64,000 bases of DNA from Paramacrobiotus metropolitanus (taxonomy: Eukaryota > Tardigrada > Eutardigrada > Parachela > Macrobiotidae). Positions within the stretch are counted from its first letter, which is position 1; each line of letters begins with the position of its first letter. The position numbers were made by a program, and so were the translations under genes. The DNA lies in NCBI RefSeq assembly GCF_019649055.1, contig NW_026570248.1, forward strand, positions 930,001 to 994,000. Reading direction: 5' to 3'. The notes beneath the pieces were generated by a model. That model searched no databases. It worked only from the letters and a program-made list of their open reading frames with translations, and was not told the DNA's origin. Below are positions 15,601 to 51,660 of the stretch, one piece after another.

Positions 15601-18600
15601 ATGGTTAGCCGGAAAGGCTCTGCCAGGGCAGACGCCCTGCCGGACCAGGTGGCTCTCTCACCATGGGCCGCTAATGCCAATGGCGTATCAGATTCCAGCA
15701 GCAATGACAAATCCCCAGCACCGGTATATGACAACCAAACCACATTACCAGTGGATGATATCGGCGTGTCGGACCGGCCACAATGGGGTAACAAATGGGA
15801 GTTCATACTGTCCCATATAGGATGCTGCATTGGCTTGGGAAATGTGTGGCGGTTCCCTTATGTCTGCTACAAAAACGGCGGAGGTCAGAAGACATGACTC
15901 AGAATTGCAAACCTGAAGAGCATTTGTATAATTGCATTTGTGTAATTACAATTATGGATATTCCAAATTTATTAGGAAAATACATCATTAAGTTACGATG
16001 CTGCAATTAACGCAAAGAAAAAAGTTGTGTAGCCAAAATTAAACATACCTCGATCGCTGTCGTAAAGGTCTACGTGATTCACTTGATTGTCATACGCTCC
16101 TTTTTTACAGGTGCCTTTTTCATTCCTTATTTATTATGCCTAATAACAACTGGAGTTCCTGTAGTATTTTTGGAAATAGCCGTAGGACAGTACTTTGCTA
16201 CTGGTGGAATATCTGTTTGGGACATATCGCCTATATTTAGAGGTAACTAAAAAAAACTGAAAGTGCTTGTAGTTTGATTACTGTGAATTTATTGATCTAA
16301 AGATACTTTTTTATCGATACCTCCGACCAACAGCTGTCGAAATAGAAGTACCGATCATTATTAAATTAGCCAAGAAAGGAAAACAGAAAAAGCGGTAGTA
16401 GGAATTTGGAACTATTACAGGAATATCATGAAATTACAGAACAATTAGATATCATTTGTTTGCGTTAGGAGTTGGATACGGTACGACGCTGATGGCTGGC
16501 TGGTTAAACGTGTATTACATTGTGGTTTTGTCGTGGGGACTACTGTATTTATTTTACACCTTATATTATATCAGATACGATGTGCCTTGGAGTACCTGCG
16601 ACAATGCTTGGTAAGGGGAAAAAATTATCTAGTCTGAAAGGGTTTCGCATTATAGCTAAAAAATGTTGGTATATAATTACGATGTAACGTCAGCATTTTT
16701 GATGGTCGGATTTGGATTGTGTAACTTAGTAATGGTCTATTTACGTACGTAGCAATATTAGTATCCGAGCTTAAAGCTTTATATAAATGGCTCGTTCTTC
16801 ATTTAGGCTTTATGTAAACCAAACCGCGATTATCGATAAAGAAAGTGTAAAGGTCATAAATGAACCAGATAGAGTTCTATGCGCAGTTGGTGTTTGATCG
16901 CTCCATACCTTTAGGTGGCCGTACAATACATTAGGAAACTCACCTGCTATGCAATGCAGCATTACGTTCGGTCACAGAATTTTTTATGTACTGCACTGTT
17001 TGTATTGTATAGTGCACTGTTTAATTACGTTTATATATAGTGATCAGTTTATAGTAAATATTAACGATGCCTACCTAGTACCTAGGTAGCTGCAATCCAT
17101 GACAAGGGAAACCACGTAATTTTAGGTAATACTCATTTTTCATAGTAACAAATAATGGCCATGAGCTTGATTACGGCTTCGGGTACACCGTACAGCAGTT
17201 GTTGATTTAAATCCCTTGAGCGTGGTTTAAATGTTGATGTTTGATATTCCCTTTGACACTTCAGGAGAGCATAAGATTGCGTGTTTTTTTAATCTATACC
17301 GATTCAGCAAGAAAATTGTAAATGTATCTTTCGTTAAGGTTGCCGGTCGCGATACGTAAACTCTGTGTGTAATATTTATAAATATGATAGCAACAACGTC
17401 ACTGACAAGGGATGTGTGAAAGCACTTATACTTTTATGCGTATGGCGCTTTCATAATCTTTGGAAAATCCTCGCCGAAATACACTAAGTAGAACCATAAC
17501 TAAGAAATGAGAGATCCCGCTAGTAGCCGGCCTAAATGTGTAAATGGTGTTCTAGCACATATTATTTTAATTGCATATTCTGGTTATTTATTCAGGAATA
17601 CTCCAAACTGCTCCGTTAGCCTGTTGGAAAAATCTAACGAAACGAAGTCCTTTCTGGAAAACGTGCACAATGTCGCCGATAATGTTACACGGCCTTTTCT
17701 TAACAGACTTGAATCGGCACAACAAACTCCTGCCAATCAAAGCAAAGTCGATCCGACTACCGAATTCTGGGAGTATGTGTTTCGACTTAAGCCTCTACAA
17801 TATGCATTGATTAAGTGTAAAACACTAGCCGGACATGTGTGCATGCAGAACAATTTAATTTGTCTTGCGTTATAAATCACAACATTGATCATCGATATAA
17901 TACTCACAGGAGACAGATCTTGAAGATTTCTACTGGGATTGATGATGTTGGTGAAGTGCAGTGGCAGCTGGCAGTGACACTACTGATTATGTGGATTATT
18001 TGCTACTTTTGTGTGTGGAAAGGCGTTAAATCATCCGGAAAAGTGGGTAGCTGAGAGAGATTTTCGCCGGCCTTTACACGCCACTTAACTACTTGTAACA
18101 GGGCTCTTAAAACAACGTGTCACTTTGCACTGTAGCTTCGCTTTCTTCCACATTTGTATGGCTCTTTATAGGTGGTTTACTTCACGGCGCTATTCCCCTA
18201 TGTCATGCTCATTATCCTATTTTTTCGGGGAGTTACTCTACCGCACGCTATCGATGGGATTATATACTACCTGAAGCCGGAAATATCCAAACTCGGTGAA
18301 GCGAATGTTTGGGTGGGTGCTGTCACGCAGGTGTTCTTTTCCTACGCCATTGCACTGGGATCGTTAACAGGTTAGGAGAAACTTTAAGCGTCAATTTTGT
18401 GCTTCTCTTACCATCAAACAATTTCCGCGTAATGTGTTGTGCGACACATTCCTTGAAACTTATTCACGCATGACTCGTGGAGTTAAATAGGTTGGAAAAT
18501 ATCCTCAGAAGCTAACAATAAGTTAATGAAGTTAGGTAATAAAAACCCTTTAAAGTATAATATAAGATGGGCAACCCAAAATTGTGTTATGGCTTAATAC

Positions 18601-20335: not shown

Positions 20336-20967
20336 ATGGCACACAGAATTTTTGTGTAAATATGGCCAAATAAAAATGTAACGCATTGCTAGATGATTGG
20401 TTGTAATAAAGTTTTTACGATGTTTGATTGTTCAGAAATACTTTATACTTGCTACACCCGGTCTACTATCGTTTCTGTTTGCTAGCAACCTTAAAATTAT
20501 TAATGTTCCTCAAAATAACACCAGACGTGTTGTACCGTTGTAAGTGGCATATTTCCTTAAATTTTATCGCTGGTCGCGCATATTTGATTTTGTTATGCAT
20601 TCATACGGTTGCATGGTACGGCGGCATCTTCGACTTGATAGCCATAAATATAATACTGGATATGGAATGTGTAACTGTACATTTTAACAAATTAAAAAGG
20701 AAACTCATGAGATTATGTTAGAAAGTTAGAAAATTAATGTACGTACTTAACAGTTTAGTGTATCGTGAACGAATAATCTCACGTACCGTAACACCGCAGT
20801 GTTTTCGGTAAAAAGAGTGAAAAATTTGTGACTTTAATAAGGCTTACTTAAGCCTTCCTATAATCGTGAAAGAAGTCACAGCAATCCAAAACTTCTATCA
20901 CTAAGAACTGCTATCACAAAATACTTTATAATTAAATATGTGTTTATTTAATCTACGAAGTTCAATA
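20336..20967. other. 3' UTR and intergenic DNA
   Basis: Contains the two AATAAA signals of the SLC6 gene at its start. A 97-codon frame at 20,428-20,721 is Leu/Ile/Tyr-rich with no recognisable features and is not called as a gene. Confidence 0.4.
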
Positions 20968-21920
20968 CCGGGTGGCTGAACAAAATGGCGGTCTCGGATT
21001 TTCGTTTGTCTCTTGCGGGGCAGTTGTCGCACCGCGAACTGCTTAAGTTCATTCGATAGAGAATTCATTCAACTACAAAAATCAGCAAAGCGTTCCTAAA
21101 AATGTTTAGTCGTCCTCACTTGCTCTGGAGCCATTTGAAATCGGGGGAAAATTTTTCGTGTCCCAGGTTTCAAAACCCAGAATCTCGTAGCACTGCCTTC
21201 TCGTAAGTACTTTTTGAAAAATCTCCAGTGTTTTATCTAGAGCATGACGTCTACTTTGATTATAAAAAAAGTTGTAGACATCGTGCTTTCCCAGGAAGAG
21301 TTATGCAGTCAGGACAGTTTGTAACTTTCGAAAAATGCTGGTTTTAATTTATTTTTTAAGAGTATTTTTAATCTAAATTTTGGCCGCAATAAGGACTGCA
21401 CCAAAAATGCCGGTTTTAGCTTTTACAGTAGCTAATGTATTGCGTGCAGATGCACTGTTGAACCTGATAAACTTCTGAAGGGTTGGCAGAAATTTACTAC
21501 CAAAAATCCCTGCTTACGAATTTCATGAAAATTGTCCCGTGCCTAATCGCCGCCATTCCGTGTATTGGCCAAACATGGTTACTAGAATACAACAGTTCTT
21601 GACATAAAAAAAAACTAGAGACCACCCCTCAACCCGAAACAGCAACGTAAGTTACATTACGGCTCTTTGCTGAACAACAGCAATTTTTACTTTATAATAA
21701 GGTAATTTCAGATTTCCGTCTTCAGGACATCATTAAAACCTGCCCAATTTTTAAAAATAATTCAAGATAAAATTAAACCTCTGCCTTATGTAATCCGAGT
21801 TTAATTTTTGTATGCGGTAAACTTTGCTCTTTCGAATGAAATTAAGGTTATGGCAATCGAATATTTGACGGACCCAGTGCGACGGTTCAAATGAGACCGC
21901 CATTTTGTTCAGCCACCCGG
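20968..21920. mobile_element. MITE, perfect 28-bp TIRs, TA target
   Basis: A 953-bp segment starts CCGGGTGGCTGAACAAAATG (20,968-20,995 in full) and ends with the exact reverse complement (21,893-21,920); all 28 bases match. It is flanked by TA on both sides (20,966-20,967 and 21,921-21,922), the target duplication of Tc1/mariner-type elements. There is no transposase frame inside, so it is non-autonomous. Perfect ends suggest recent movement. Superfamily is inferred only from the TA duplication. Confidence 0.88.
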
Positions 21921-22378
21921 TATATAACGAAATAGATAGTTCAATAATGAACTATTTCTTTCGTTACTGAACTTCAATATTGAACCACTTCAGTCAAAAA
22001 TACTTTATAGATACTGCTCTAAGAAGTAGACTCTAGAAAATAAACTGATTTTCCATTACAGTAAATAACTACACACACTGTGCTGGTGTGGTAAGACTAC
22101 GGTTGATGACAAGTTGACCCTCGGAAAAGCACGCTCGCAAATAATAACAGCAACCACAACGGTTTATCATTAAGTCTGTTGTAATATTTATAATTTTGTG
22201 CTTTAATGCCCCTTACAAGATTGCTTGTCATGAACGAGGAAACAAATGTATACTGTGATCTGCAAGGCCGCCCATTCGAGTCGGCCACCCAATTTGCCGT
22301 TCTCGGACTTGGCCTGAGAACGGCAACATTTGAACCAGAAGTGATAAGGGGTCATCTGAAGACTGCATTCGAAGCCAT

Positions 22379-22740
22379 TGACGGAGAGATCAGTACGATA
22401 GGAATAATTACCGTAAATAATCTATCCTACCGACCTAACTCAACGACAGAGAATGAGCTAATATCTCAATGTGGCATAGCTAAGTCTACGAATCTACGCG
22501 AAGCGAGACTGCATCTCCGACGATATTTTAATTAGAAACTCCGATCACTGCCAAACTCATAATGAGAGAACTGATCCTCAAAGTACTGCCACTCACGGAC
22601 TTATATAGACACGGCGCATCCGTGTAGAAACAACCAAAAGTAAATCCGAACACAAAAGAGAAAGATCGAGAAAGTACAGCGAATAATAGAAAGTACGAGT
22701 CAAGCCGTCACTTTACGTACTGTACTGCTATATTCCGTCA
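22379..22740 (-). repeat. 3' LTR (left copy)
   Basis: 362 bp, beginning TGACGGAG and ending TTCCGTCA on the plus strand. It is identical to the right copy except for one substitution and one extra base near 22,680-22,696. It is directly preceded by CCAT, one copy of the target duplication. Confidence 0.96.
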
Positions 22741-22751
22741 CCCCCGCAAAC
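22741..22751 (-). other. Candidate polypurine tract
   Basis: On the minus strand GTTTGCGGGGG abuts the 3' LTR, where plus-strand DNA priming occurs in LTR elements. The same GTTTGCGGGGG word recurs twice inside the pol-like frame, near 29,174 and 29,241. Confidence 0.55.
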
Positions 22752-23134
22752 GGCTTTTGGGGAACCCAACACAAAAAGAACCGAAAAGAAAAGCAAAAAC
22801 AGGAATAAAAACTGAACGAGTTCTCATGCTCACGACTGGGCAAAGGCGGGCAAGTCCATCCTCCGTCCACGAACGAATGACTGATCCTCCTCCAAGGGTG
22901 ACTGAATGAGATGGAAAGTGAGGAGAGGATCCTGGACGGGATGGAGATTGAGCGTAGGCAAGAAGGCAGGAAGACTGAGTAGGGCAGAACGGCAGTCGGA
23001 GTACACACAAACAGGAAAATCGTCGGAGTAAAATAAACTTTAGGTTTTTAAGTGGCAAAATTAAATTAAATTAAGGTAAATCGCCGATGAAAAATTAACG
23101 CAAAAAACATCCGCGATGGAAAATCGCTACACAA

Positions 23135-23848
23135 AGATTGTAGTCGCTACACAGTCACGGTATACGGTCCGGTAAACGATACGGTGGGACACCGTATCGT
23201 TAACACCTCAGAGCTGTCGCACTCATCGCAAACGGTGTACGATACATACAGCCGAGTCATGCTTTCGTGAAAGAAACGTGAAAAGTTTCAATCAGCCTTG
23301 GCACTTTGTATGAGATAAACCGCGTCATATTAAAACTAAAATTCCAGATTATTTTTCGATATCAGAACATCCAAATTTGAGCGCCAGTGAACGTGTCTAG
23401 GAGCATTTTTTAATTAACACAGAAGTCTACGGAGTCTGAGTCAACAGCTTGCGCAGAGCTCCAACTGCTCCGTAAGCTTAGCATGGTAAACGCAAATGGC
23501 TGTAGAATCGTGAATTTTGGATAAACCGCTCCACTTGGTATCAAAAACTTCAAATAATTTCATCCTTCTTTTGATTTACTTTGCTGGTTAATCAAGAATA
23601 CTTAGAGCTTACTCTACCAATTCAAAACTTCCGTGTTTTGGCAAGTGCAGCCGTTGTTATGGAGGCCACCGCCACCATGAGTGGTTGCTATATCGCTGAG
23701 CACAACGGTATGCTCGACGATATCTGAGCCTTTACCGTCAATCCTATCGTCAAACGGTCCGGTAAGGTACGCTGTGATGATGCAAGAGCCTATCGTATAT
23801 CGTACCGTCTATCGTAAGCCTTTTTGTGCGTGCGACTACAATCTAATA
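23135..23848. mobile_element. Small MITE-like element inside the LTR element
   Basis: Its left end, GATTGTAGTCGC near 23,137, is matched by its reverse complement, GCGACTACAATC near 23,848. Inside each end are related words built from CGATA and CGGTCCGGTA, and a local hairpin lies at about 23,166-23,210. No coding frame. No clear target duplication was found, so exact ends are uncertain. Confidence 0.5.
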
Positions 23849-24498
23849 AAAAAGAAAACACCACTTTGCGAAACACAGTCAAACGCAGGTAGTCAGCATT
23901 GCAACTCGAGGCGGTTACCAAAGCGACTTTCGTAGCAGCGTACAATCACCATATGAAAGGGCCTAGACTCCAACTCTGACTCTGATTCTGACCACTCAAA
24001 CTCTGACTCTGACTACTCAAAGTCTGACTCTGACTCTGAAGATTTCTTAGGTTTCTTAATAATTAATTAATGTTTATTGTCCTTTGCACGGAGCAGTTGC
24101 TCCCTCTAGGCTACAGACAGCAGAAGTCTAACAACAAAATAATAAAAACATTGAAGCGTGTAGTCACAATCAACAACATCAGCCAAAACAGTTAGCAGCA
24201 GTAACATTAGATGCATACAAGCGGAAGTAAACATTTTTATGTTGGTTGCGAACTTGCGATAAGTTGACGCTATGGTGGAAAACAAAATGGAAGGGAGACG
24301 ATCGCGCTGGGGTCGATGCATAAAACCAAAACCCACGTGTAGTTAAATTTTTAAGTACTCAGAAAGATTTTCAAAAGAAATCGTGGGAAAAAAGGAAAGC
24401 AAGGACACTTGCGCACGTAATCGCCTTTCTGTACTTTTCAACTAAATCGCAACCACATTAAATAGCCTACTGACACTATCTACTGTAATCATGCCGGT

Positions 24499-26701
24499 TC
24501 ATTCCTTGAGTAACGGTGTTACAAAACGTTTAACAAAGGTCAGCTGGCTCCAGTTGACGGTATCGAGCGCAGTCGTGAACACGTTGAGCGTGGTATAACT
24601 TTTCTTGTCTAGAGCAATTTCATTCCATAATAGCGCCAGGCGACTCGAGAGGAGTCCGGGGAGGCGGTAGAGTTTTTCCACATAAAGTTGTTGGTGCCGC
24701 CACAATGGGGAACGGGTGTCCACATAGCCGCAACGCTGACCGTGTATTACCTGAAACAGAGGACACAGCGACAGCAGTTTGCTCATACAGTAAAAAGAAC
24801 CGTTCACCAAGTGGGATACGGTTGAACACAAGTTTATAAATTAAGACAAGGCTATGTTTCAACCTACGTAATTCAAAACAGTCCCAGTTTAGCTCCAGCA
24901 ACCGCCCTTTAAGACTGGTATTACCAAGATAAAGTAAATCAAGGAAACGAGATAAACAACGTTCTAATTTTTCCCGGCAAGTTTTATTAACAGGCGCAAT
25001 AAAAGGGCAGCAATAGTCAAACGCCGTGAACACCAAAGACTTGAACAACTGAATTCGAGCGGCAGAATCAGCTTTCCTGAACGCAATATTAATCCAGCGT
25101 ATTTTTTTACGCAGTTTAGTTACCAAAATGTCGGTATTGTCTTTGAATTTCAAACTGCGGTCAAAAAGTATACCTAAATATTTTACACAGTCGCTTTTCT
25201 CGATCGCATTACCATTAAGATAATACCGTGAGTCAACGATCGGTACCCGTTTTTTCGAAAAGGAAATATGGTACGATTTCAGAACATTAAATAGAAGTTT
25301 ATGGTTTTTAGCCCAACTTTCTACCGCAGTAAGATCAGACTGTAACGCAATTTCATCAGCTCTTGTTGAAACTGGTCGGTAAAGAGCTATATCATCGGCG
25401 AAAATAAGCAGCTCGCTGTTGTTGAGCAGCGCAGACGGTAAAAAATTTAATACACAAAGGAAGAAACACGGCCCAACAACTGACCCTTGCGGCACACCGC
25501 TAGTAACATTAATAACTTCCGATACACAACCATTAACCATTACACACTGCTTCCTGCCTTTCAGGTAATCAGACACCAAGTGTACTACCTGACTATTAAT
25601 TCCCAGTTTAATCAAAGCTTCCACAATAACCTGATGATCACATTTGTCAAATGCTTTTGAACAGTCCAGAAAGAAAGCATGAACTTCTACGCCATTTTCA
25701 ATGAAATCTGTTGTAGACTTTACGAACCAAGAGATCTGTAGTTCGCATGATCGCTTCTCCCTGTAACCAAATTGGTGATCAGTTAATTTTTGATGAGTTT
25801 TTAAATAATCACGAATGTATTCGTCAATACAACGTTCAAAGATTTTGGAAACAGGGTTCAACAGAGAAATTGGCCGGTAATTGAGAGGGCTTGTCTGATC
25901 TTTAGAACTTTTGGGAATAGGAGATATGTACGACAATTTCCAGCATGCCGGATAGCAACCTTCATTGACCGCTGCAGTAAAAATTAATTTTAGAGGCTTT
26001 ACAACTACATTAGCACATAATTTTAAAAGTTTATTCGTTATTGCAAACGGACCGCTAGACGACGAAGGCGAGCAGTTAGCAATGTGATAGAAAATCATTT
26101 CTTCAGTAATATTAAAAGGTTCAGCTACATTACTTGCACAGATATCGATATCAGAGCTACGACAGTGACGATCACATGGGCCTAGAGAATTTGCAAACAT
26201 CTGGTTCAAAGCGGTTGCTTTTTCGGAATCTTTTGAAAGAACTGAACCGTCATCCATTTTCAGTGGAGGAATTCCAATTCGGTCATCCGCTGACTTAAAA
26301 TACTGCCAAAATTTTCGCGGGTTGTTACGGGCTGCAGTTGCGGCTTCGGTAACCTGATAGTTTTCAAAATTACGTATTAACTTCTCCGCATGCTTACACA
26401 GATTTTTCCAGTGAATTTTATAATTTTGAGCGAGAATAGAATTATTATTTTTTACTGAATTTCGATATTTTTCAAAAGCAGTATTCCTTCTTCTGATAGC
26501 TCTTTTTACGTTACTTGGATAAATGGTAGTATCCTTACGTTTCGCTTGACCGTAAACAAAATATCGCTTTGCAATGGACAAAAACAAAGATTCAAATATT
26601 TCTACACGTTTATTCGTATCAGCATTTCGAAACTGCTCATTCCAATTAACAGATCCCAAATCATTGACAAAAGCAGATACTTTGTCCGCAGCAATTTTCA
26701 A
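24499..26701 (-). pseudogene. LINE reverse transcriptase ORF, frameshifted end
   Basis: A frame of 693 codons (26,701-24,620) is open with no true Met start because it is the second half of a broken EN-RT polyprotein. Reverse transcriptase landmarks: LDCSKAFD near residues 345-352, SGVPQGSVVGP near 401-411, and the catalytic FADD near 434-437, followed by thumb-region motifs such as VKYLGILFD. At about 24,760 sense switches to another minus-strand frame that carries the conserved WNEIALD end and stops at 24,499, so one frameshift is inferred. All catalytic motifs remain readable. Confidence 0.88.
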
Positions 26702-26729
26702 CTCGGCGGGCTGAAGATAGGTGATTTTT

Positions 26730-28188
26730 GCGCTTAATAGATAACATAAGTTCGAAGGCTAAATGATCGTTTTAACTGAGGGAGGGCTGATTGGTTGGAT
26801 GCCCATTACCAAATTTTTAGGTGATAAAATGCAGAGGTCTAGACAATTTTCAGACGAGTAGGAAATCAACAATTTGCCTTAACCCAAATTCCTTCATTGC
26901 AAAATTAATTCTTCCCCAGTCCCAGAGTTTCCTTTACAACTGTTCCACTCTATTTCAGGCAAGTTAAAATCACCTATTATTATTAGCTTAGACATTACTG
27001 TTAATGGGATGACAGATTCAAGATGAGTAACGAAAACTGGTAACAAGGACTGCACTTTAGATGGAGGTAAATAAACACACACAATAATCCTGTCAATGGT
27101 TGGAATTTCGACGAATATCGCTTCGACACACGCAAGCTCATATTCAATACGCCTAAAACTTTTCATATTTTTACGAACAATGACTGCTACCCCTCCACCA
27201 TATCCGTATTCTCGCCGTTTACGAAAGACATTGAAAGAGCGTAAATCCGCAAACTTGTTATCCGTAATAGCTTCATTGTCCCAAGTTTCAGTTAGACCGG
27301 TTATATCCGCATCAGCACAAAAAAGTTTAACCTGACAACTTTTATTTCTCACACTGTTCACGTTACAGCAGCGGATCTTAATTGTTTTAAGATTGCGGAT
27401 ATTGCTTCTTGTTGGAAGTTTGCACTTCGCCAAATTCACTGAACCAACTTTGTCAATTACCATGAAATTATCGTTTAGGCAATTATCATTGGAATCAGCT
27501 GGATTAGAAGAAATATGACCTTTAAATTCAAAACTCAGTAATTTTTGCGGTAAACCTGCGTTTTTTACTGAGCTGTTATAAAACATCCTCGACTTGTATA
27601 TATTTTGGTAAACACTGCAGTATTCAAAAGCGAAAGCCGCATGCGGATTATTATTATTCAGTTTACCAGCCGTTTTGCAATTTACGCACTCGTATTTAAA
27701 AGATGGGTCGTTTTCAGGGCAGTCAGTTGAGAGGTGTTGTTTCGCACAGTATCCGCACACTGCATCTTTCACGCACTTCGAAGCTACATGATAAAATTCA
27801 CAACATTTTTTACACTGTGGCACATAAAAGTGATCAGTTACTGGACAAGAATACCAGCCTAGTAATACGGATTTCTTTGCAGCTAGAGCATCACGTGTTT
27901 TGATATCAACATCAATTACAGCAGCATAGGTCAACGGGTTAGGGCGGTTGCTGGTAAGCTTTTTCACTATTTTTACTTCGGTATCAGCGGATAAATTTCT
28001 CAGCTTTAACTCGGAAATGAAGTCTTCTTCAGGCATTGCAACTGGTATCCTACGTACGATCATACGCTGTTTACGAGCTTTTGGCTTTTCGACATTAACC
28101 CCAAGCTCATCACTGTATTTTTTGAATAAAGCTTCACCGTTAGTTGCGTCACCAGCAGTTCCAAACTCGATAACGACTGACTTTAATA
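26730..28188 (-). pseudogene. LINE zinc-knuckle and endonuclease ORF
   Basis: A single frame from about 28,188 to 26,894. The N-terminal half has zinc knuckles: CKKCCEFYHVASKC (CX2CX4HX4C), CGYCAKQHLSTDC (CX2CX3HX4C) and a third CVNC...H...C. The second half is an APE-type endonuclease with TETW and GDFNLPEI. ORF1-like knuckles and the endonuclease are thus in one frame. It ends in a premature TGA at 26,894; the end of the endonuclease continues in other frames (FGLRQIVDF, then LDLCILSPKNL). The DNA nicking activity is therefore lost. Confidence 0.85.
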
Positions 28189-28290
28189 GGTTTCTTAGGT
28201 TTCTAGGTTTCTTAGGTTTCTTAGTTTTCTTAGGTTTCTTAGGTTTCTTAGTTTTCTTAGGTTTCTTAGGTTTCTTAGGTTTCTTTGGTT
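28188..28290. repeat. GGTTTCTTA minisatellite
   Basis: About eleven imperfect copies of a 9-bp unit, GGTTTCTTA, next to the right arm of FB1. Two more copies lie at 24,043-24,058 beside the left arm. Because the unit is a multiple of three it makes a false FLGFLG frame. The same unit forms the inner arms of FB2. Confidence 0.9.
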
Positions 28291-28400
28291 ATTCAGTCAG
28301 AGTCAGAGTTTGGTCAGTCAGAGTCAGACTTTGAGTAGTCAGAGTCAGAGTTTGAGCGGTCAGTCTGAGTCAGAGCTTGAGCGCGGGCCATATGAAGCAT

Positions 28401-29527
28401 TCAAAAAGGATAACTTCGGGAATAAAATCCTAGAAAATTTACAGGCGCATTTCCACGTTCTTCAACCACACACGGTTTTTCGTCATACACCATTTTCACT
28501 TCCTGACCGTCAACTCCAGTAATCGCATTTTTTAAATCAGCTAATGTCTGATTCACGAATTCAGGTTTTTCACAGTCATCTGCGTCGATGCGTCGACCAG
28601 CCCAGTTATACTCGTACTGCACAGATTTTGTAGTGTACGGGCTTTCTCTCTGCGATTGAGCATTATAAATTTCAACTTTTTTGTTCTGCGAATTACCGCA
28701 AACTTCCGCTACACATTCAACATGGCGCATTTCCGCACAATCTAACACACGTTTAAACGTATTTTCAGTCACTTCAGCATTTTTGCATTTCAGTAAAACA
28801 TTTTCAATTGTTTTCACCATGTTACACCAATAATATCGGGTTGTCAGATACGTTTGCACTGACACGCCGCGCGGTAATAATTCATTTTTCACACAACGTT
28901 CACGTACTGATTTCACAAGTTTTTCTTGCCATTGTTTAGGCACCACAATTCTGTCAATACTTCTACCCTTTAATGAGCGCTTACGACACAATCCATTTCT
29001 CACAATCATGTGATAAATTTCTTCGTTTTGAAATTTATTTTTCGCCTTTACGGGATTTTTGTACAAGTAATACCAGTGTTTGGTATCCTTGTACTTCCGC
29101 TGCTCGGCTTTCCAAAACTCTTCATTAACCAAATTTTCGGCCAATAAGGCTTTACCAGTATTAATGGGCTTACCCCCGCAAACTTGACTGGACACAGTCG
29201 TTTGCGACGCATCGGGCGGTAGCTCATTGGGCACTGTTCGCCCCCGCAAACTTGACGGCTGCTGCGTTTTAGTTTCTTCATTTTCAGTAGATTTCAAATC
29301 GCACTGAACAGTACGAATTTCCAGTGAACGCATTTCAACCAGTTTCATATTGTACCGTTTCAATACTTCAGGCGGCGGTTCTTTCGTAACAGCTTTCCAT
29401 TTGCCTTCAAATGTACAGTACTTTGCTGGGTGCAGCTCGTGACATTTAAAGCAGATCGGCTGACCGCTATCAGTTCGCCATTTATGTACATTAATTTCAA
29501 CATTTCCAATTATGTACGGCTTTTTTT
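28401..29527 (-). pseudogene. LTR element pol remnant: CCHC plus integrase-like segment
   Basis: A minus-strand frame runs from an A8 run near 29,521-29,528 to a TGA at 28,401. It begins with a CCHC knuckle (CFKCHELHPAKYC), then a polar linker, then a segment like the integrase N-terminal domain: DRIVVPKQWQEKL and TTRYYWCNMVKTIENVLLKC. The His pair expected in an HHCC domain is not conserved, so zinc binding is doubtful. Protease, RT and RNase H are absent: the knuckle passes straight to the integrase-like part. Two GTTTGCGGGGG copies lie in the linker and may mark a recombination that removed the middle of pol (inference). Confidence 0.65.
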
Positions 29528-31008
29528 TGTCGATACTGTAACTTCCACAGTTTTCATACTCTTCGTAATTTCACATTCGTCATCATTCAAACTTTCAGTT
29601 TCATACAAGTACTCATCGTACGTATTTTCACAATCATCATTTTCATCTGAACCAGCATTATCGTACATTTCTCTTTGACACTTCAAAGTGTACAGCGTTT
29701 TCAACTGTGCCATAACATCTTCAACAGTTTTTGGTTTTGAGATGATCAGCTTGCCATACCATTCCATACGGGTTTTCTTTAGTCCCTGAATCAGCACAGA
29801 CACTCGTTCTTCTTCTTTTGTATTTAATGTATTAAACCAATTCAAGAAACCATCCACATACGAATTTACCGTGTCTTCCTCATTGAAGACACGTGCATAC
29901 TGTATTTTATCAGACGCTTTAGGCGTTCCCTACATTTCTTCCATTTTAGCCATTAGAGCTAACTGACATTTCATCAGTTCATTAGCTCTTGTTTTTTCAT
30001 TGCTACATTCATTTTCATTTCTTTCAGATTTACTGCGCAGTTTAGACAATTCAGCTTTTAGCGTACTGTTTTGAATTTCCAAATCTGTATTGCGGCCGCT
30101 TAACGCATGACAAATGCGATTCGCGTGGCCCGCGCTCAAGCTCGGACTTGGACTCGGACTTGGGCTACTAAAACTTGGACTTGGACTTCACTTGGACTCT
30201 AAAACTCGGACTTCACTTGGACTTGGACTTGGACTTCACTTAAAATTGGACTCGGACTTTACTTGGACTCTAAAACTTGGACTTTATGACGTAGGCTTGG
30301 ATTTAGGCGTTTCTTATGTTTCTTATGTCTTCTTACGTGTTCTTAGGTTTCTTAGGTTTCTTAGGTTCTTATGTTTTTCTTTGGTTTTTCTTAGGTTATC
30401 CAGGTATTCATTGGTATTCTGAGTAACCTAAGATGCCTAAATCTAAACAAAGAAGAACTAAAAGCTATGAGGCCACAAAGAAACCTAAGAAAACATGAAG
30501 AAACGTAAGAAGACATAAGAAACATAAGAAACGCCTAAATCCAAGTTTACGTCATAAAGTCCAAGTTTTAGAGTCCAAGTAAAGTCCGAGTCAATTCAAA
30601 AGTGATCGAGTCAAAGTCATGAAGTCCAGTTTAGAATCAAGTGATCCAAGTCAAGTTTTAATAGTCAAGTCCGAGTCCAAGTCCGAGCTTGAGCGCGTGC
30701 CGATTCGCGTTACTGTACTTCCTCCGAAGTGCAAGCGCAGCGTACAGTGATGCCCAAGCAATCTCCCTCAGTTCATCTACATTCATTTCATTATCAATTT
30801 TTACATCCCAATTTTCAATTTCTGCTTCAAACCTATTCTGGTCAAGCGAATATTCAATCAATTCAGACTGCAACGGGTGCATATCGTACCACAATTCTTC
30901 ATTATCAGCAATGCCGCCGAACTGTACGGCATTTTCATTTTGCTGTGCTGCATTATCGTATGCAGTTGACGCTACGCCTTCCATTGTTTTAACATTTTCG
31001 GTGTCCAT
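29510..31008 (-). pseudogene. LTR element gag-like ORF, interrupted
   Basis: The frame starts with ATG at 31,008 (MDTENVKTMEGV), is cut at 30,710 by FB2 and resumes at 30,126. Omitting FB2 and one GATTCGCGT copy keeps the frame. It then has a Lys/Glu-rich coiled-coil segment (TLKAELSKLRSKSERNE), a TAG stop at 29,930-29,932, and continues open in the same frame through FLNWFNTLNTKEEER and KTRMEWYG, as in retrotransposon gag proteins, to 29,510. Just before its end a run of eight A allows a -1 shift into the CCHC frame. The TAG and FB2 both disable this copy. Confidence 0.75.
30127..30701. mobile_element. Foldback element FB2 in gag
   Basis: 575 bp with exact 9-bp duplications GATTCGCGT at 30,118-30,126 and 30,702-30,710. 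Ends are GGCCCGCGCTCAAGCTCGGA and its near-perfect inverse. The arms, each 200-250 bp, consist of TTGGAC/TCGGAC-type hexamer repeats, then TAGGCGTTTCTTATGTTTCT, then GGTTTCTTA units, around a loop near 30,370-30,470. There is no coding capacity. Shares its terminus and inner minisatellite with FB1, but the arm hexamer differs (TTGGAC against TCTGAC). The 9-bp duplication resembles foldback and Mutator-like elements. Confidence 0.92.
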
Positions 31009-31923
31009 TGCACTGGCTATCCGAGGAATTGTACCCGGATGCTTAAGCTACGACTTTTATCCAGTGTCTGTTGCACTGGCTGTAATTTTTTATCCGGTAG
31101 ACTTCTGCTCTACGCAGAAACTTAAGCTACGCTTTTGTTTTCAGTGTTCGTTACACTGACTACCGGGTTGACTCGTTTGTTCTCACCCGGATACTGCAGA
31201 TTGAGATTTTGATCGTCGGTGTTCTCTTACCGCTCACAGCGCTCGCAATTGCTCTGGCTGTATGGCTACGCTACGATTTTGGTGCACCTGTATGCTCTCG
31301 CTTTTCGCTCTCGCATACAAAACTAAAGCTCAAGATTTGTATCGATACTCTGTATGTTCAGGCACTGCTCTGACATACGAAACTTAAGCTCAAGAAAACC
31401 GCTTTCGACACTTTGTCTACTCACAGTCGGTTACGTAACCGCTACGCTCAAGATTTCTAGGAAACTCGTGCCCTGGCCAGTAGCTACGAGTACCTACTTC
31501 AGCTTCAATTCACAATCAACTTTTCGTATTTCATATTCGTCATTTCATCAATTCATATTCATTTCACGTTCAGGCTTCATTTCATTTTCACTTCTGTGCT
31601 CATGGGTCGATTTACAGGTTATCCCTGCATCGCCCTGCTGGCAGGACAAACTGCTCAGCGTCCAGACAGGGCAAAGCCCCCGGACATTTACAGGTTTTCG
31701 TCGTGGGTCGCAGGCACGAATCAGCTGGGTTTCCCCTTGCCAACGCGTCGCCAGTACCCGGACTACTGAAGTTTAGGCGTCCAGACGGCAGACCAGCTGC
31801 CCGGACATCCGTCCAGTCAGTACAAATGTACCCGGACTGAGCACAATCTAAAGGCCAACATTCACAATTGCAATTTCAATCACAGGTTTACTTAGCTAGC
31901 CATCGGTTAGGTTCGAACATCGG
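31009..31923 (-). other. LTR element leader with serial hairpins
   Basis: The 0.9-kb leader between the 5' LTR and gag has no gene. Between about 31,010 and 31,450 it shows a chain of short inverted repeats, for example CCAGTG...CACTGG, CAGTGT...ACACTG, CCGGGT...ACCCGG and TGTATG...CATACA. They are separated by repeated AACTTAAGCTACG / AACTTAAGCTCAAGA spacers. Between 31,620 and 31,850 CCGGAC and CCAGAC words recur. An RNA packaging or translation role is possible but inferred. Confidence 0.55.
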
Positions 31924-31932
31924 TGGGCGCCA
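31924..31932 (-). other. Primer-binding site, tRNA-Lys-like
   Basis: Directly inside the 5' LTR the minus strand reads TGGCGCCCA, complementary to the 3' end of animal tRNA-Lys (TGGGCGCCA). The match beyond nine bases is weaker. This fixes the orientation of the element. Confidence 0.7.
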
Positions 31933-32293
31933 TGACGGAGAGATCAGTACGATAGGAATAATTACCGTAAATAATCTATCCTACCGACCTAACTCAACGA
32001 CAGAGAATGAGCTAATATCTCAATGTGGCATAGCTAAGTCTACGAATCTACGCGAAGCGAGACTGCATCTCCGACGATATTTTAATTAGAAACTCCGATC
32101 ACTGCCAAACTCATAATGAGAGAACTGATCCTCAAAGTACTGCCACTCACGGACTTATATAGACACGGCGCATCCGTGTAGAAACAACCAAAAGTAAATC
32201 CGAACACAAAAGAGAAAGATCGACAAAGTCAGCGAATAATAGAAAGTACGAGTCAAGCCGTCACTTTACGTACTGTACTGCTATATTCCGTCA
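31933..32293 (-). repeat. 5' LTR (right copy)
   Basis: 361 bp, nearly identical to the left LTR. On the minus strand a TATATAAG box (plus 32,156-32,163) lies about 130 bp from its start and could drive element transcription. The host target copy CCAT follows at 32,294-32,297. Confidence 0.96.
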
Positions 32294-32433
32294 CCATGAA
32301 CGTCACACCGTTCCCTCTCCGGCAGGGTCAACAAAAGCCTATTTCTCTGACTCTGACTATACTCGATCGTGGCATCACTGGCATACCAAAAAACATGTCT
32401 CAAAAGAGGCTGAAAATAATCATTATCGAATAA

Positions 32434-33062
32434 AGTGTGAAAAGCTTATGAAAGTGTAAAAATCGAATTTAAAAATACTCAGTAAATACATATTCAAATG
32501 TGAATGTAAAAATCCGTGCACGCAGTCAGTGCCCGTGCGCAGAAAATGCCAACCGTGCGTGCAGCCATAATGAATTTTTTGTTTTGCGTACAGCGGCAAT
32601 GCACGGTAGCAACCAAAAGAGTTCACTCAACTGCAAGCGAATACTCTAGATTCCTGAATAATTCCAGAAAACTCAAAACACTGGGATAGCACTTAAAGGT
32701 CACTGTCAATGAGACCGTCCAGCAAACTGCTTCAGGGGCTGAAATTACCGGTACCAGTTGGCCATGGAGTGGTACTGCCGTGGTTGCAGTGTAACTGGCC
32801 AGTTAATACCGCACGCGTGATGGTCAAGTGTGCTAACACTGCTAAGTGAAACAAATAGCAGACACTCTCTAAAGTTTAAACTAACCTGATAATAGGGTAA
32901 TAGAAAGCGCATGAACTATCTGTCATATTCTGGTGTTCGTAAAAATCCAAGTCTTACTGATCACAGTCACAGTTACCCTTTTTCAGTCGACAGTACTAAC
33001 TACATCGATCGACAGAGCTACGGAATGCTGGCATATATATTCGGCATCGCATAAGCGGCTGG
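32434..33062. other. Intergenic
   Basis: Downstream of the AATAAA signal of the split ORF. No gene or repeat recognised. Confidence 0.4.
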
Positions 33063-33422
33063 TTATGAGATGCCGTCCATAATTTGCAGAGTTACGGATG
33101 AATTATCAGAATGGCTGATGGCTGGAGCTATTGAATGAAAAGCTTCCATCAGTAAGAATCTTGGAATGGCCAAAGTATCGTCTACTAACAATTTGTCTGG
33201 AGGATATGTTGTGGAGAATCGCGCTACCGTGGTTCCGTCGGAAGTCTTCGGCCGAAATTTTGGAATTGCTTTCCTGTGACTGCTTTTTTTTATTTTTGGA
33301 TGTTCGCCTTGGAATCGGGAAGAATTGGAGTTATTGCTGGGTATTGTGGATGTGTTGTAGCGTGATCCGTGTTTGGCTGATTTGTTTAAATTCTTAGGTT
33401 CTTGCTCAAGCGAGAAGAACAC
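33063..33422 (-). CDS. Unrecognised hydrophilic ORF
   Basis: A 119-codon minus-strand frame, Ser/Asn/Lys-rich in its first half (KNLNKSAKHGSRYNTST). No domain is recognised. It lies just downstream of the decayed TSP1 gene on the same strand and could be its former tail exon, a separate exon, or chance. No strong splice sites were found around it. Confidence 0.25.
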   Translation of the reverse strand: MFFSLEQEPKNLNKSAKHGSRYNTSTIPSNNSNSSRFQGEHPKIKKSSHRKAIPKFRPKTSDGTTVARFSTTYPPDKLLVDDTLAIPRFLLMEAFHSIAPAISHSDNSSVTLQIMDGIS

Positions 33423-33822
33423 AGAATCAGAGTGGTTAACTGCAACAATTATACGGCATTCGTACTATAATAACGAAATTTACACGCGCTTTTAAAGTAC
33501 AGTATGTGTCGCTAAGAAGGGAAAATAACCGACAAAACCTTTACCGCGTTGCGGTAGTACCTTTGAAAAAGGTTTACTTCTATAGAAGGCAGAAGCCAAT
33601 ACAAGTATACAACACATGAACACCAGGTTTGCAAAGACACCGGAAATAAAACGGTTCACCCTAAAATCCTACACACAGTCCAAAAGGGGATCAGACACGT
33701 TTGTACTAAAAATACGTCTAAAAATAAATGATCACTAATACAGCAAAAATCACAATCAGAACAAAACAAAAATCCCTGCCATGAGTATCCCAAACTTAAG
33801 GCTTAGATTCGGCCCCTAATCC

Positions 33823-36249
33823 TCAAACAGCGACAGTGTTGGGTACGACAGCCGGTCCCCCTCCTTTATATATTGTCGGTGCAGGGTACAGTTTCTCAGA
33901 CTTGTATTCAACATAGCTCGTAGTTTGAGCTACAACAATTCCTCCTACCAAAACAATCATACATCCAGCAAAAGTTTAAAAAATTGTAGTCGGGAACATT
34001 ATACGGCTTCGCTCCATGCAGGAAGCACTGAACCCCATCCCTGCATCAGCTGTCCAGGTTGCACATACGGGCAGACACATTTCGTGGTCCATACTCGGGC
34101 GGACGCAGTACACGGAAATCGCCGGGCAAAGGCAGGTAGTACACCGATGTCTGCACTCCTGGGTTTACTTGAGGATAAACGCAGAAGATAACCGGTTGCG
34201 TTGACGAAGTCGTAACCTTGATACGCCGGGAAAGGTGGAATTATGGATCGGTTTGGATACAATTATTCACATTGGTGTTCCATCCTTGATAAGTGGGCGA
34301 GTAAGTATTGACAGGCGCCGGTACTGGGCAACAGTCTGCCGGTAACTGGTCGAATTTGATGACACATATTGCGTGGGGGATATTGTTGTGGCAGCTATGG
34401 TACTTCGGAATTCAGATAATGTTCGTCATGGTCATCTTGCTCCAAAATTAATGATCCATTTTTATTCTGATTGCTCCTTTATCGCGATACGCCGTACTGT
34501 TATATTCTACAAGATCAGCTGCAGCGGGATATCGCCGGAGTGGATGCTTCGTTGGCGTAATTGTAGTTTGTCTTTGTCGTACTGGGCATCGAAGCGCTGC
34601 AGTTCGCCTAAACAATGTAAACTCATTTGCCTGCCTGCCTGATAACGATAACGTGATAGGCAAAATATTTAAAATAAACACCCGGGCGTAAGCTGACAGC
34701 GCAACCAACCAGTTCAATGCTTCAGGAAATCACAAATCAGACGATCCATCCAGACAAGCACTTCTAGGTTGTGGGCGAGGAGGTGGGATTACAACAGAAT
34801 CCGTTAGTCAGGTACTCTGTACGCTAACAATCATACACTGGCGGCGTCGCATTCACGAACGAGAGCAAGACGACCATGAACTCCAGTCTCCAGCAAATTC
34901 AGTCTTTTCTCGTAAACCTGCAAGGATGCAAACATGTGACTTGTGAGTAATATCGATGAAGAAAAAAAGGCAGTGCCACTGACGTGGGCAACTTTCGAGA
35001 TGATTCGAAGACGTACCGCATTTTTTACGATTGCACTGGGCTACTTCAAAAGCCGGTTTGGTACAGAATTCTCCATTCATTACTGGAAGGTTATCTGCAA
35101 GCGTCCGATTGCGATACCCATATCCTGTCCACACGGTTTCGAGCACGACGACCATTCACTCCACGGAGGATAAATGAAATTGTTTATATCTATGAATTTA
35201 CAAATAAAACGCGTACAACAATATAAATGAAAATGTGGAAACGGGATGTGATCAATCTTACCTTTATAACAGCTTCGGTAATCGCATTCGACCTGCTGTA
35301 TTTCAATTCTCGGGCAATCTTCGACATGCGTCGAACCACAACTGAATATACGGAACGTGTTAGCGAAATAACCATATTCAGAACACGGCTGGAGCAAGGA
35401 TTGGGCAATAACAAGCTACTCCATGCTGCATAATTTTGACGGTAATCTGTTCAATAATATACTCAGTATGACAAATTTGTCCTTACCATTAGGTGTACAC
35501 ACGAGTTGTTGTCCTTACGGTCACAAGGATGAGTGTTGCACAACTGAATATCACACGGTGTCCCGCATATTAAATGTTGACCGATACCGCTCGATAATCA
35601 TTTTCGAATGCGCATAGTTGAATCACCTCCGCATAAGGAAGAACATGGAGACCAGCTTGACCAGTGATCCCAGGCCAGTGCTTTCTCTAAAAATTTCACG
35701 GGATTATTTCAATATAGAATTTAGAGCATATTCCACGGAAAATTAACATAAAATGTCTGAACTCGACATGTACTGCACGACGAAAACACTAAACAGGTAC
35801 AGCGAAAACAAAATCATGCTAATTGCACACCTACTTGAAACGACAAGAAGAACGTTTTCGACATCGTTCCATTTCGAAGTCGTGACCTTGACAGGCATCA
35901 GAATCCTTTCCAGATGGACACACAGAGTACTTATAACGTATTCTTGTTTCGACGCCGCAAGTATGCGAACATGAGCTCCAAGGATTTCAAGAGGATAATC
36001 GCGCTTCAACTTCTTGATCTGCAAGTGGCCGTGATTTGAAAGAACGAGCGTCAGCTATCGTCAGTAATCCAGTATCCTATCGTAAGAAAGTGTCAAGTCG
36101 TACCGTCACAAGCGTCCGTAGTAAATGCCTTTTCTTTGTAAGGATCAGAATTACAAATTTCATCATAACGCTGTTGTGTAGGGACATTCCAAGTTCCATA
36201 GCGAATGCGGCCACCTCCTCCACATTTGTGATTGCATGGTGACCAGTAT
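33823..36249 (-). pseudogene. Decayed TSP1-repeat gene
   Basis: Reading down the minus strand there are at least six thrombospondin type-1 repeats on separate exons: YWSPCNHKCGGGGRIR (36,249-36,100), NPWSSCSHTCGVETRIR (about 35,990-35,840), HWSSWSPCSSLCGG (about 35,675-35,520), a repeat ending DCPRIEIQQVECDYRSC (about 35,430-35,270), PWSEWSSCSKPCG (about 35,175-35,040) and DWSSWSSCSRS (about 34,910-34,850). A Pro/Tyr-rich part follows (34,350-34,050), then a hydrophobic MIVLVGGIVVAQ and a tail ending at TGA 33,823. Such proteins are secreted or surface adhesion/matrix proteins. Lesions: TGA at 35,987-35,989 where the first conserved Trp is expected; TGA after MRIRK where Cys is expected; frameshifts in the fourth and fifth repeats; a lost acceptor AG before PPWSEW; and a stop in the sixth. 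Confidence 0.78.
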
Positions 36250-36252
36250 CTA

Positions 36253-37214
36253 GTGATAATTAAACTCTTAATTATGCTGGGAATTAAACATTATGATTAA
36301 TTCAATTAAAATTATGACAATTTTGATTATGCTGAGCATAATTAAAATTGCGCAATTTGAATTAAGCTTGAGCATAATTAAAATTGGTCAATTTTAATTA
36401 TGCTTAAGCTTAATTATGAGTCAAATCAGGAATAATATAAATAGCTTGATCAAACAAAAACTGAATTTTAATTATGATAAGCAAAATTAAAATTGAGCAA
36501 TTTTAATTGTGCTCCAGCTTAATTAAAATTGTTGAATTTTGATTATGCTGATCATAATTAAAATTAATCAATTTTCAATTATGATAAGCTTAATCAAAAT
36601 TATAAGCAAAATAATTATGATGAGTTTAATATTCACTACCAGTATCATAACCTTCGCTGGCTGTAAATAAACACATCCTAATATTTAGCAAACAATCAAA
36701 GTAAAAAGGGAAGAGTAGGACACATTTTAAAGAAAAATGTTTATAAAAAGATTATACTCTAGTATTTTTCTATCAGTTGTACACTTCCGATGTTCACCAC
36801 TCACACTCGTTTAAAATTAAAAAGCTCATTACAAGTAGTGAATATTAAACTCATCATAATTATTTTGCTTATAATTTTGATTAAGCTTATCATAATTGGA
36901 AATTGATCAATTTTAATTATGATTAGCATAATCAAAATTCAACAATTTTAATTAAACTGGAGCATAATTAAAATTGTCCAATTTTAATTTTGCTTATCAT
37001 AATTAAAATTCAGTTTTCTTTGATCAGGCTATTTATATTGTTCATAATTTGACTCAGAATTAAGCTTAAGTATAATTAAAATTGACGAATTTTAATTATG
37101 CTTACTTCAATTAAACTGCAATTTTAATTATGCTCAGCATAATCAAAATTTATAATTTTAATTGAATTAATCATAATGTTTAATTCCCAGCAAAATTAAG
37201 AGTTTTATTATCAC
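36253..37214. mobile_element. AT-rich foldback element with TA ends
   Basis: A 962-bp near-palindrome. Its left arm (36,253-36,639) and right arm (36,835-37,214) are inverted copies with few differences, built of AATTAAAATTG and AATTATGCT words, around a unique loop of about 195 bp. The ends read GTGATAAT and its inverse with TA on both sides. No coding capacity. It lies at the splice acceptor of the first recognisable TSP1 exon, one acceptor base being part of the flanking TA. Confidence 0.88.
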
Positions 37215-37946
37215 TAATTACAAGTAAAAATGCCCATAAAAGAAAACTAGACTCACCGTTGACGCTTACTCCCACACGCTTACAATCCCATCCGAACTGA
37301 TCCGTGAGATGTTTCCACCAGCAAAACAACAAAAATCCAGAATAATCGTGGAATGCTTTCTATCTGGCAGTCTCTTCTATAGAGGACGGTCTGCAGAGTG
37401 CAGATTGAAATCAGCGCGCTGAAATACTGAAAGGCTTCCCACGAGCCTGGTTTCTGCTCTTCCGTACGCCATACCCACCTGTGTGGCAGTTACTTACAGT
37501 GGTAAACGGGCGGTTAGGATAAAATCCAACGCATAACGACGGTACATGCAGTCTAGAAGTAGAGACACTAGTCACTAGTGACTAGAGTTAGACAGGCAAA
37601 AAACAGCATTTTCAGTTTTCTCAATATTTGCGGTTGTTTTAAAACTTAAGTAGAGTCCAAAGAGGTGAATGTCAATAACAGTTGTATTTTATTTTTGATG
37701 TCTTCTTTTGTTACCTACAGAGCTGGTTTTCAAAGCGAAGTTTTTTTATCTATTAGAATTTATTGTAAACTGCTCGGCTAGGCTGCTAAGAAGTGGATGC
37801 TTTACTTAGCTTCAGCGTTCTGATTTTCTAGAAGCTGTGAATTTGACCAACTGGTGCTTGGAGTTTTCTTTCATATTGTTACGGAATATTCTGTATCTAA
37901 GTGCATTAAAGTACTTGAACAGAATTGGTTTTGGTCCATCCGGAGA
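37215..37946. other. Flank of TSP1 remnant and 5' UTR of next gene
   Basis: On the minus strand, 37,260-37,370 looks like an exon: acceptor CTGCCAG near 37,367, donor GTGAGT near 37,258, with a frame containing FLLFCWWKHLTDQFGWDCKR. It could be the former upstream exon of the TSP1 gene, but splice phase does not agree with the TSP1 frame. The plus side near 37,800-37,946 is the presumed 5' UTR of the coiled-coil gene. Confidence 0.35.
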
Positions 37947-40900
37947 ATGGAAGAAGGGGACAGTTCGGTTGAGCTGGGTGATGAAGAACTTGACGAGGAG
38001 TACCACGCTCTGCAGGAGCAGATTGACGAACTCTTTCAGGGATGGAATGCAAGTGCGGAGTCCAGAAGCTCTTCCCTATACGACGGACTGCATGAAGCTT
38101 CTCAGAACTACAACAACTGTTTATTAGTAGCGGAAAAGATGAATGCCCGTTCTGAAAGTAAGAAACTTCGGTGTTAGAACAGAAGCAGTATTTGCTGTAG
38201 TTGCACGGTCGTGACGCTGCAACAATCGCGTGTGGCCTTGGCTAGAGTTGAAATCACGATTTCACTTTTCATTTCACTTTCATTTCGTATTCACGCGGAC
38301 CCCCGCGTGAAATGTGAAATGAAATGTGAAATGGTGAAATCGGGAAATCGCTTGAAATTACGAAATTACAGCGATTCACAATATTTTTTGCAACAGAAGT
38401 TATTCACTCCCCTGTATTTTTTTGTGTAACCGCTTCTAACTCGAACCCCTGCATTAGGCAACAGACATTATTGTAGTAACTGGAAGAGAAGATAACGTTT
38501 TTCATACGCTTTAAGGGAAGTGGCCCGGTACATGGCAACAAATTCGTGTACGTACATGCGCGAAAACCTTCACTTTCGCGCACTCCCAAACACATTTTTG
38601 TTTTGGTTTATCACATTCTGTAGCCAGATGATTTGTATACACTGGCGTGAAAACCGTTTGTGCGCGCAACATCCGGTTCGGGAGATATGGCTGTTAGAAA
38701 ATACCAAAAAGTTTAAATGCATTCAGGTGTACCAAAGTCTTATTATGGACCGATCTCCTTCACATTTTGCACGTAAATGCACATGGCCACGAACATCGTT
38801 TTTACACCGATCAGACTTCCATGATTTCTGTCAAATTTTAAAATGAATTTTAAAATTTTTGAAATTCTATTTTAAAATTTGAAAAACTTGCTAGAACAGT
38901 GGATTGATGTGAAAACGTTCTTCGTGGTTATGTGCATTTACGTTCAAAATTTGAGGGAGATCGGTCCATAATGAGACTTTTGGTACACCTGAATGCATTC
39001 AAACTTTTTGGAATTTTCTAACGGCCATAACTCCCGAACCGGATGTTGCGCGCGCAAACGGTTTTCACGCCAGTGTATACAAATCATCTGGCTACAGAAT
39101 GTCATAAGACAAGAGAAAAACGGGTTTGGGAGTGCGCGAAAGTGAAAGATTTCGTGCATGTTCCCGACTTTCGTACCATGTACCGGGCCACTTCCCTTAA
39201 TTAAGTGCAGGTAATTGCAGAATTTCGAAATCTTAAAAACATACTTAGCCAAAACGCACTAAGATTTAGTTCTACTGTTCTGACCAGTAATACTAAGAAT
39301 TCGGTTTGTCAAACTCGGATCTCGTACTGCGGATAAAAAACAAATACTAATAATGTTTCAGAGGCGTTTACAGTGTACTTAAGATGAAATGCAAAATAAC
39401 AGAATTTCTGGGCTGCAGATACTTGCACTTCGCAGTCTTACAGTTGGACGTGACAACTTTACCAGGACACAGTCAAAAGGCGCTACTGCTAGTACAATAC
39501 GTGTAATTCAAAAATAATTCCGTGCAGTGCGCTACTGCGCTGTTTGTTGTATAGAAATGAGCATTTCCTTTTTATGCCTTGTTCTTCGGTATCAATTATC
39601 CTGGTCAAACTTCAGCTCCTAATTTTAGTCTTAAATAGTTTCAACTTATTTTGTACTAAAAAGTAAAAGTAAACTGCAAAATCATTTTGTGCATACCGTA
39701 TAGTCTTTACTGAATAATAAAATTAAGGAAACCGTTATAGGCTCCCCCTAAAACCCCCGTTTATTATAGGCACCCCTTTCGCACCCTGTTTATTATAGGC
39801 ACCCATTTTGAATTAATACGGCAAATAATATTATGTAAACGGAATGTTATCTACATATTCCAAAAATTTGTCATTATTGTTCTGTACAGTTGCTTTGACC
39901 GTAAAAATTATATCACATTATGGCCGGTTCAAGCAGCTCTCTTGCGCCGGGGCCATCGGAAGCCATGATCAATTTAGTATTCCCATCACTGAATGTCGCA
40001 TTCCCATCACTGATTTAGTATTCCCATCACTGAATGTCGGCGGTCGCTGACCTGAAGTACGAATTTCTTTTGAAGAATTCTAGAAAGACTAAGGCATACC
40101 GGGAAGCGACTTCCCAAACCTTTCCAAACATTCATAATACGACGGTCTGAAAAGTTCAAGAACGGTGAAGCTCTGAGCCGTCCTTAAGTGCAGAAAGATT
40201 TTACGAATATGTACGTGCACCACAGAGAATACGAAAAGAAGGGCGTTGGAGCTCGGCCATTCCTCCTAGGCGACGAAACCAGTGCGCGGCTCGCGCCAGG
40301 CATCAGGCAGGTGAAATCACCGCGCACTGCACTTCCCGGTACCAGCATTGCAGACTGCGACGAAGCAAGTACATCTCAGAACTGTGGGCCCTGGTGAAAA
40401 CGGCATAGGAGTCCTGATAAACCTTACGACAGCGACCTGACTGATGTCCTATCGGTTGGGCGGATGCATTATGACAGGGTCATCGGCATCTTCTCATATA
40501 TATCTATGTCAGAAAGGAAATCTAGAACGCTCGAATATCCAGGTGACCTGCCATCTGCAATCCCGACGGGCAGTGTCGGGCAGGAAGTAAAGCGCATACA
40601 GAATAATCTAGCGGCAGGAATGGAATCATTCAGGCCCTGTATATCTCAAACCATTTTGTGCTGTCGCACAAACACCATCCGAAGCCAGTGAATGAGCTGA
40701 TCATCGTGAAAGGTGACCTTCTGGTCACAGTTGAAGACGCGCTACTAATTCGTTCTAGGCTGGCTGATTTGCCTAATCGTCCTATTGTAACTGTAGGCTG
40801 GAAAGCCTGATGTACTTAACTCGACGCCAGAAAAATTATTGTACTATTATCCGAATAAAGCTGCATTACTTATTGAGAATACTGAATCTGTTATATTAAG

Positions 40901-43536: not shown

Positions 43537-45073
<1,537 letters not shown>

Positions 45074-49660: not shown

Positions 49661-51660
<2,000 letters not shown>

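Follow-up and report, generated by a model that had tools for sequence, protein, structure and literature searches.

A stretch of 64,000 nucleotides from the tardigrade Paramacrobiotus metropolitanus (contig NW_026570248.1, positions 930,001 to 994,000 of the forward strand; hereafter the window) contains a long terminal repeat (LTR) element of 9915 bp that reads on the minus strand, within which lie two foldback DNA elements and, inside the second of these, a long interspersed nuclear element (LINE). The history that we prefer, with a probability of about 80%, is ordinary nested transposition, in which an LTR element with its foldbacks and LINE would sit in host intergenic DNA and the 102-codon plus-strand open reading frame (ORF) across the site would be a chance or shadow frame. 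The locus forms a four-layer nest of host, LTR element, foldback and LINE, and could be used to ask if other transposons travel as cargo of LTR elements and if the identity of the LTRs is a correct guide to age. The kinds involved, namely gag-only LTR elements, nested LTR elements and foldbacks with 8-10-bp duplications, are already described in the literature.

Both LTRs begin with TG and end with CA, as LTR retrotransposons do, and the element is flanked by a short target-site duplication, CCAT (Table 1). The two LTRs are 99.45% identical; a single substitution and an indel of 1 base set them apart. An earlier note on this DNA had described these ends, the CCAT copies and an LTR pair differing at two positions, and all of this was borne out; the minus-strand reading of the element had been missed. 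The same note took the insertion to split a host ORF, and here its account divides, since the structurally complete insertion with near-identical LTRs is supported and the splitting of a readable host ORF is not. Immediately after the 5' LTR there is a stretch that resembles a primer-binding site, and a purine run adjoining the 3' LTR is presumably polypurine-tract-like. No tRNA to pair with the candidate primer site was found within the window. So small a difference between the LTRs over 361 bp makes a recent insertion plausible, although gene conversion between LTRs can, according to PMC7251063, give an old element a young look. The same paper reports that for about a quarter of nested retrotransposons in plants the LTR divergence is above that of the enclosing element.

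We looked for the coding content of the LTR element by replacing stops with X in three minus frames and searching these against Pfam, a method that recovered the thrombospondin repeats in a control. In neither 28398-31909 nor 22748-23950 did the three minus frames give an LTR-type polymerase family. A 389-codon frame and a pair of shorter frames (Table 1) would be gag-like, as suggested by their position and by a CCHC-like motif seen by eye, and no confident Pfam match was found for either. From the set of gag, protease, reverse transcriptase (RT)-RNaseH and integrase that an autonomous LTR element would carry, the searches returned a sub-threshold Integrase_H2C2 match alone, in the 389-codon frame (E 0.053, below the cut-off). 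The simplest reading of the sequence is that the LTR element is non-autonomous. It is like the non-autonomous gag-only LTR retrotransposons called TR-GAG in its LTRs, primer-like site and gag-like frames and in the polymerase not being found, but differs in that gag identity is here a likeness of position and motif, and the TR-GAG papers concern plants.

The polymerase that does lie inside the LTR element belongs to the LINE. Its RT frame matched 11 distinct PDB sequences (phmmer), four of them LINE-1 ORF2, three R2, two named reverse transcriptase-like protein, one named RNA-directed DNA polymerase and one the GsI-IIC RT; because the matches are mostly to LINE-1 ORF2 and R2, this polymerase is of LINE type. 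Exo_endo_phos and RVT_1 domains follow one another in the order found in LINEs with an endonuclease of what we take to be the APE type. The copy is also like such LINEs in its 5' truncation and putative target duplication, but differs in being broken, with at least 3 in-frame stops within 26759-26896, between the endonuclease and RT frames. The length of the LINE duplication is ambiguous, as it lies within the (AAGAAACCT)n repeat array. The LINE-type polymerase was also considered as the LTR element's own pol and was ruled out, since the LINE sits between AAGAAACCTA stretches inside the foldback and, by eye, starts mid-frame. One pattern match in viral contigs was obtained with the RT frame and one with the 389-codon frame, neither confirmed by tblastn; the contig collections searched for relatives were viral and prokaryotic, and misses there say little about eukaryotes.

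Both foldbacks have long inverted repeats built from short tandem repeats, whose units include ones of 6, 9 and 21 bp. Foldback 1 has a folding energy of -226.7 kcal/mol, where 20 shuffles average -63.4 (z = -22.6), and the arms of foldback 2, made of (GACTCT)-type repeats, are 98% complementary over 48 bp. The end motif GGCMCGCGCTCAAGCTC is mismatch-free at three of the four foldback ends, where the expected number of matches at up to 3 mismatches is 0.09; the fourth end, at 23960, has diverged and is not recovered by the family pattern with 3 mismatches allowed. On their sequences the two belong to one family. A duplication in the 8-10-bp range typical of foldbacks is exact over 9/9 positions at foldback 1, and a putative one at the equivalent ends of foldback 2 agrees at just 7/9. 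Among 200000 random pairs of interior 9-mers two were identical, and two further sets of 200000 pairs gave 480 with at least 7 matches and 51 matching over 7 contiguous positions. No transposase was seen in either copy in the window.

Two described systems are close to these foldbacks. The Tm1 Mutator/Foldback family of root-knot nematodes has, according to PMC3169594, duplications of 8-10 bp, mostly 9 bp, in 45 of 53 complete elements. Tm1 shares with our elements inverted repeats that are composite and contain short tandem repeats, 9-bp-type duplications and nested inserts, the last mentioned in its supplement legend; it differs in that a transposase was not seen here, and the likeness is one of overall structure. 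The Tetris foldback of Drosophila virilis (PMC4079207) likewise has tandem repeats in its arms, a variable middle, 8-10-bp duplications and no conserved ORFs, but is built of TIR-220 repeats where ours have short units, and this likeness is one of description, not sequence. Elsewhere in the window, a foldback-like palindrome at 36234-37233 has 36-bp sub-repeats and 188-bp arms that are 95% complementary, and an inverted repeat at 38554-39161 has 183-bp arms that are 92% complementary.

In the nested history that we prefer, a non-autonomous minus-strand LTR retrotransposon would have inserted here with RT and integrase supplied in trans, making the CCAT duplication. It contains the two foldback elements of one family, the second with its 5'-truncated, broken LINE, in an order of insertion that we presume, and the site lies in the DNA between an SNF-type transporter gene on the plus strand and a thrombospondin-repeat gene on the minus strand. 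Perhaps the LTR element, foldbacks and LINE had been assembled beforehand and were moved together as cargo by LTR retrotransposition, which is compatible with that history and to which we give somewhat less than even odds. Such a composite would explain why the LTRs differ by so little, yet the foldback 2 duplication differs at 2/9 positions, its end at 23960 escapes the family pattern and the LINE is broken by in-frame stops. However, shifting the ends of foldback 2 gives another possible duplication, TTCATATGG, that is perfect (9/9), the duplications of foldback 1 and of the LINE are perfect, gene conversion of the kind described in PMC7251063 could make the LTRs look young, and a single copy cannot give the order of events.

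Removing the LTR element and one CCAT gives an empty-site sequence of 54 kb, and in it a plus-strand ATG ORF of 102 codons starting at 22206 is indeed open, as had been reported. That this ORF represents a true host gene, broken by a recent insertion that may be polymorphic, we consider very improbable. In favour of this reading, the flanks join into 102 open codons, the GC content of the stretch is 0.47 versus 0.41 in the local 2 kb and the ORF's codon score, though average, falls within the range of the training exons. However, the insertion does not shorten the plus frame, which from the same ATG runs for 109 codons at the occupied site versus 102 when rejoined, and the right part opens with an ATG of its own. 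The length of the ORF is within chance: of 1000 dinucleotide shuffles of 2 kb around the insertion site, 117 contained one or more ATG ORFs that reached 102 codons, and 30 had an ORF of this kind lying across the centre. The codon score, trained on 488 codons in a first version and on 846 codons (15 training exons) in a second, placed the ORF at the 51st and 73rd percentiles of random frames, respectively. No Pfam family was found for it, its best PDB match had E 0.46, and none of 55 pattern matches of the rejoined ORF in prokaryote contigs was confirmed by tblastn, a eukaryotic orthologue not being expected there; relatives were not found in collections with little or no sequence from the host's kin. 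With a longer ORF at the occupied site, a chance length, an average codon score and relatives not found, the claim that the insertion interrupts a readable host ORF is unsupported. Where the occupied site holds a longer frame and the other strand is open as well, little can be read into a frame that opens on removal of an insert.

Several points weigh against the nested history with a chance or shadow plus frame. With ends chosen as for foldback 1, the foldback 2 duplication is 7/9. The window showed no second copy of the LTR element, nor did viral contigs searched with a single exact pattern of 34 LTR bases, which together make a small search. Nine ATG ORFs in the empty-site sequence, the claimed one included, reach 102 codons, versus a mean of 3.1 in 20 shuffles, so that some of them are real; this sequence also holds genuine genes. 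The plus ORF's score of -0.106 lies inside the leave-one-out range of -0.188 to 0.413, with 2 of the 15 training exons lower, in what is a weak test. A lineage-specific plus-strand gene may also be compatible with the lack of matches.

On the minus strand, the empty site has an open frame of 107 codons from stop to stop. Perhaps the insertion interrupts a real minus-strand host exon of 274 nt that runs over the junction from 32409 to 22217, possibly part of the thrombospondin-repeat gene or a small neighbour, and the plus ORF is its antisense shadow; this is compatible with the transposon part of our explanation, but we think it rather unlikely. Between the acceptor-like ATTTTCAG and the donor-like GTAAGG, one frame is open for 91 codons, and this is one of 3 such candidates in the empty-site sequence versus a mean of 0.5 in 20 shuffles; the other two are one true SNF exon and one unsupported. 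These splice patterns were, however, picked after the site had been viewed, and one of the 20 shuffles also reached 3 candidates. The exon's codon score of 0.049 reaches the 98.5th percentile among 5000 random frames (846-codon training), the frame is above the 95th percentile with the 488-codon training too, and among 97 stop-to-stop ORFs of at least 80 codons the full minus frame ranks 14th and the plus frame 46th. Taken by halves, the downstream part scores 0.105 and the upstream part about 0. But the score is poor at telling strands, as the minus frame 15600-15857, which is antisense to a training exon, ranks 5th of 97; 8 of the 13 ORFs ranked above the minus frame overlap training exons, this antisense frame being one of the 8. 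The candidate exon has no Pfam or PDB match, and the three minus frames of 32298-37297 (X at stops) gave thrombospondin repeats alone, with no domain in 20401-22378. Its donor is preceded by TT and not AG, and two candidate next exons fall inside an element resembling a miniature inverted-repeat transposable element (MITE). Should the insertion interrupt a coding exon of the host, the minus strand would be a better candidate for it than the plus strand. The fuller scenario, in which the LTR element moved recently as a composite with the foldback pair and LINE and landed in a minus-strand host exon, such that carrier and non-carrier alleles may coexist, seems to us decidedly improbable.

An UNC-5-like tail of the thrombospondin-repeat gene was also tried for the minus frame and dropped, ZU5, UPA and the death domain being absent among the families matched. 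The MITE-like element (20968-21920) has 31-bp perfect terminal inverted repeats (CCGGGTGGCTGAACAAAATGGCGG...) with TA on both sides and ends 285 bp before the claimed plus-strand ORF.

The host genes recognized around the insertion are listed with the other features in Table 1. A gathering search of the whole window against Rfam was without a match. FAM217, TolA_bind_tri, Cas1 and other weak Pfam matches were below the curated cut-off or had E near 0.1 and were taken as chance.

Table 1. Coordinates of the LTR element, its nested parts and the surrounding features, in positions of the window.
Feature	Position	Strand	Remarks
3' LTR (left in the window)	22379-22740	minus	362 bp
5' LTR (right in the window)	31933-32293	minus	361 bp
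CCAT target-site duplication	22375-22378 and 32294-32297		left and right copies
Candidate primer-binding site	31910-31932	minus	TGGCGCCCACCGATGTTCGAACC
Purine run	22741-22747	minus	GCGGGGG
3' internal part of the LTR element	22741-23950	minus	no Pfam match at E up to 1 (scanned 22748-23950)
389-codon frame, gag-like by position	28404-29570	minus	CCHC-like CFKCHELHPAKYC by eye
Frames gag-like by position	29513-30187	minus	85 + 139 codons, one in-frame stop between
Foldback element 1	30127-30701	minus	575 bp, near-complete hairpin
Duplication of foldback 1	30118-30126 and 30702-30710		ACGCGAATC, 9 bp, exact 9/9
Foldback element 2	23960-28389	minus	split by the LINE
Putative duplication of foldback 2	23951-23959 (3' copy) and 28390-28398 (5' copy)		9 bp, 7/9 identical
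5'-truncated LINE	24058-28186	minus	inserted in (AAGAAACCT)n array, middle of foldback 2
Duplication of the LINE	28187-28196 and 24048-24057		AAGAAACCTA, 10 bp, perfect, at both junctions
LINE endonuclease frame	26897-28186	minus	Exo_endo_phos E 2.1e-8 (frame 26894-28288); CCHC-like region by eye
LINE RT frame	24623-26758	minus	RVT_1 E 5.5e-28 (frame 24620-26758)
109-codon ORF of the occupied site	22206-22535	plus	host part and LTR; no Pfam match
Right part of the claimed ORF	32296-32433	plus	45 codons, own ATG at 32296; no Pfam match
Candidate exon, upstream part	32298-32409	minus	acceptor-like ATTTTCAG just above
Candidate exon, downstream part	22217-22378	minus	donor-like GTAAGG at 22216-22211
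UAA transporter exon	11445-11957	plus	
SNF transporter exons	about 15.8-20.3 kb	plus	two by Pfam, rest by eye
Thrombospondin type 1 repeats	34.9-36.3 kb	minus	
Ras-family GTPase	50529-50975	minus	
Methyltransferase	58708-59214	plus	

A minus frame at 43540-43803 looks by eye like the end of what we take to be a ubiquitin-conjugating enzyme. About 52 bp from the insertion point, at 22294-22326, a short hairpin (TTGCCGTTCTC...GAGAACGGCAA) was seen by eye; LTR elements are said, in the title of a plant study (PMC6911290), often to target palindromes.

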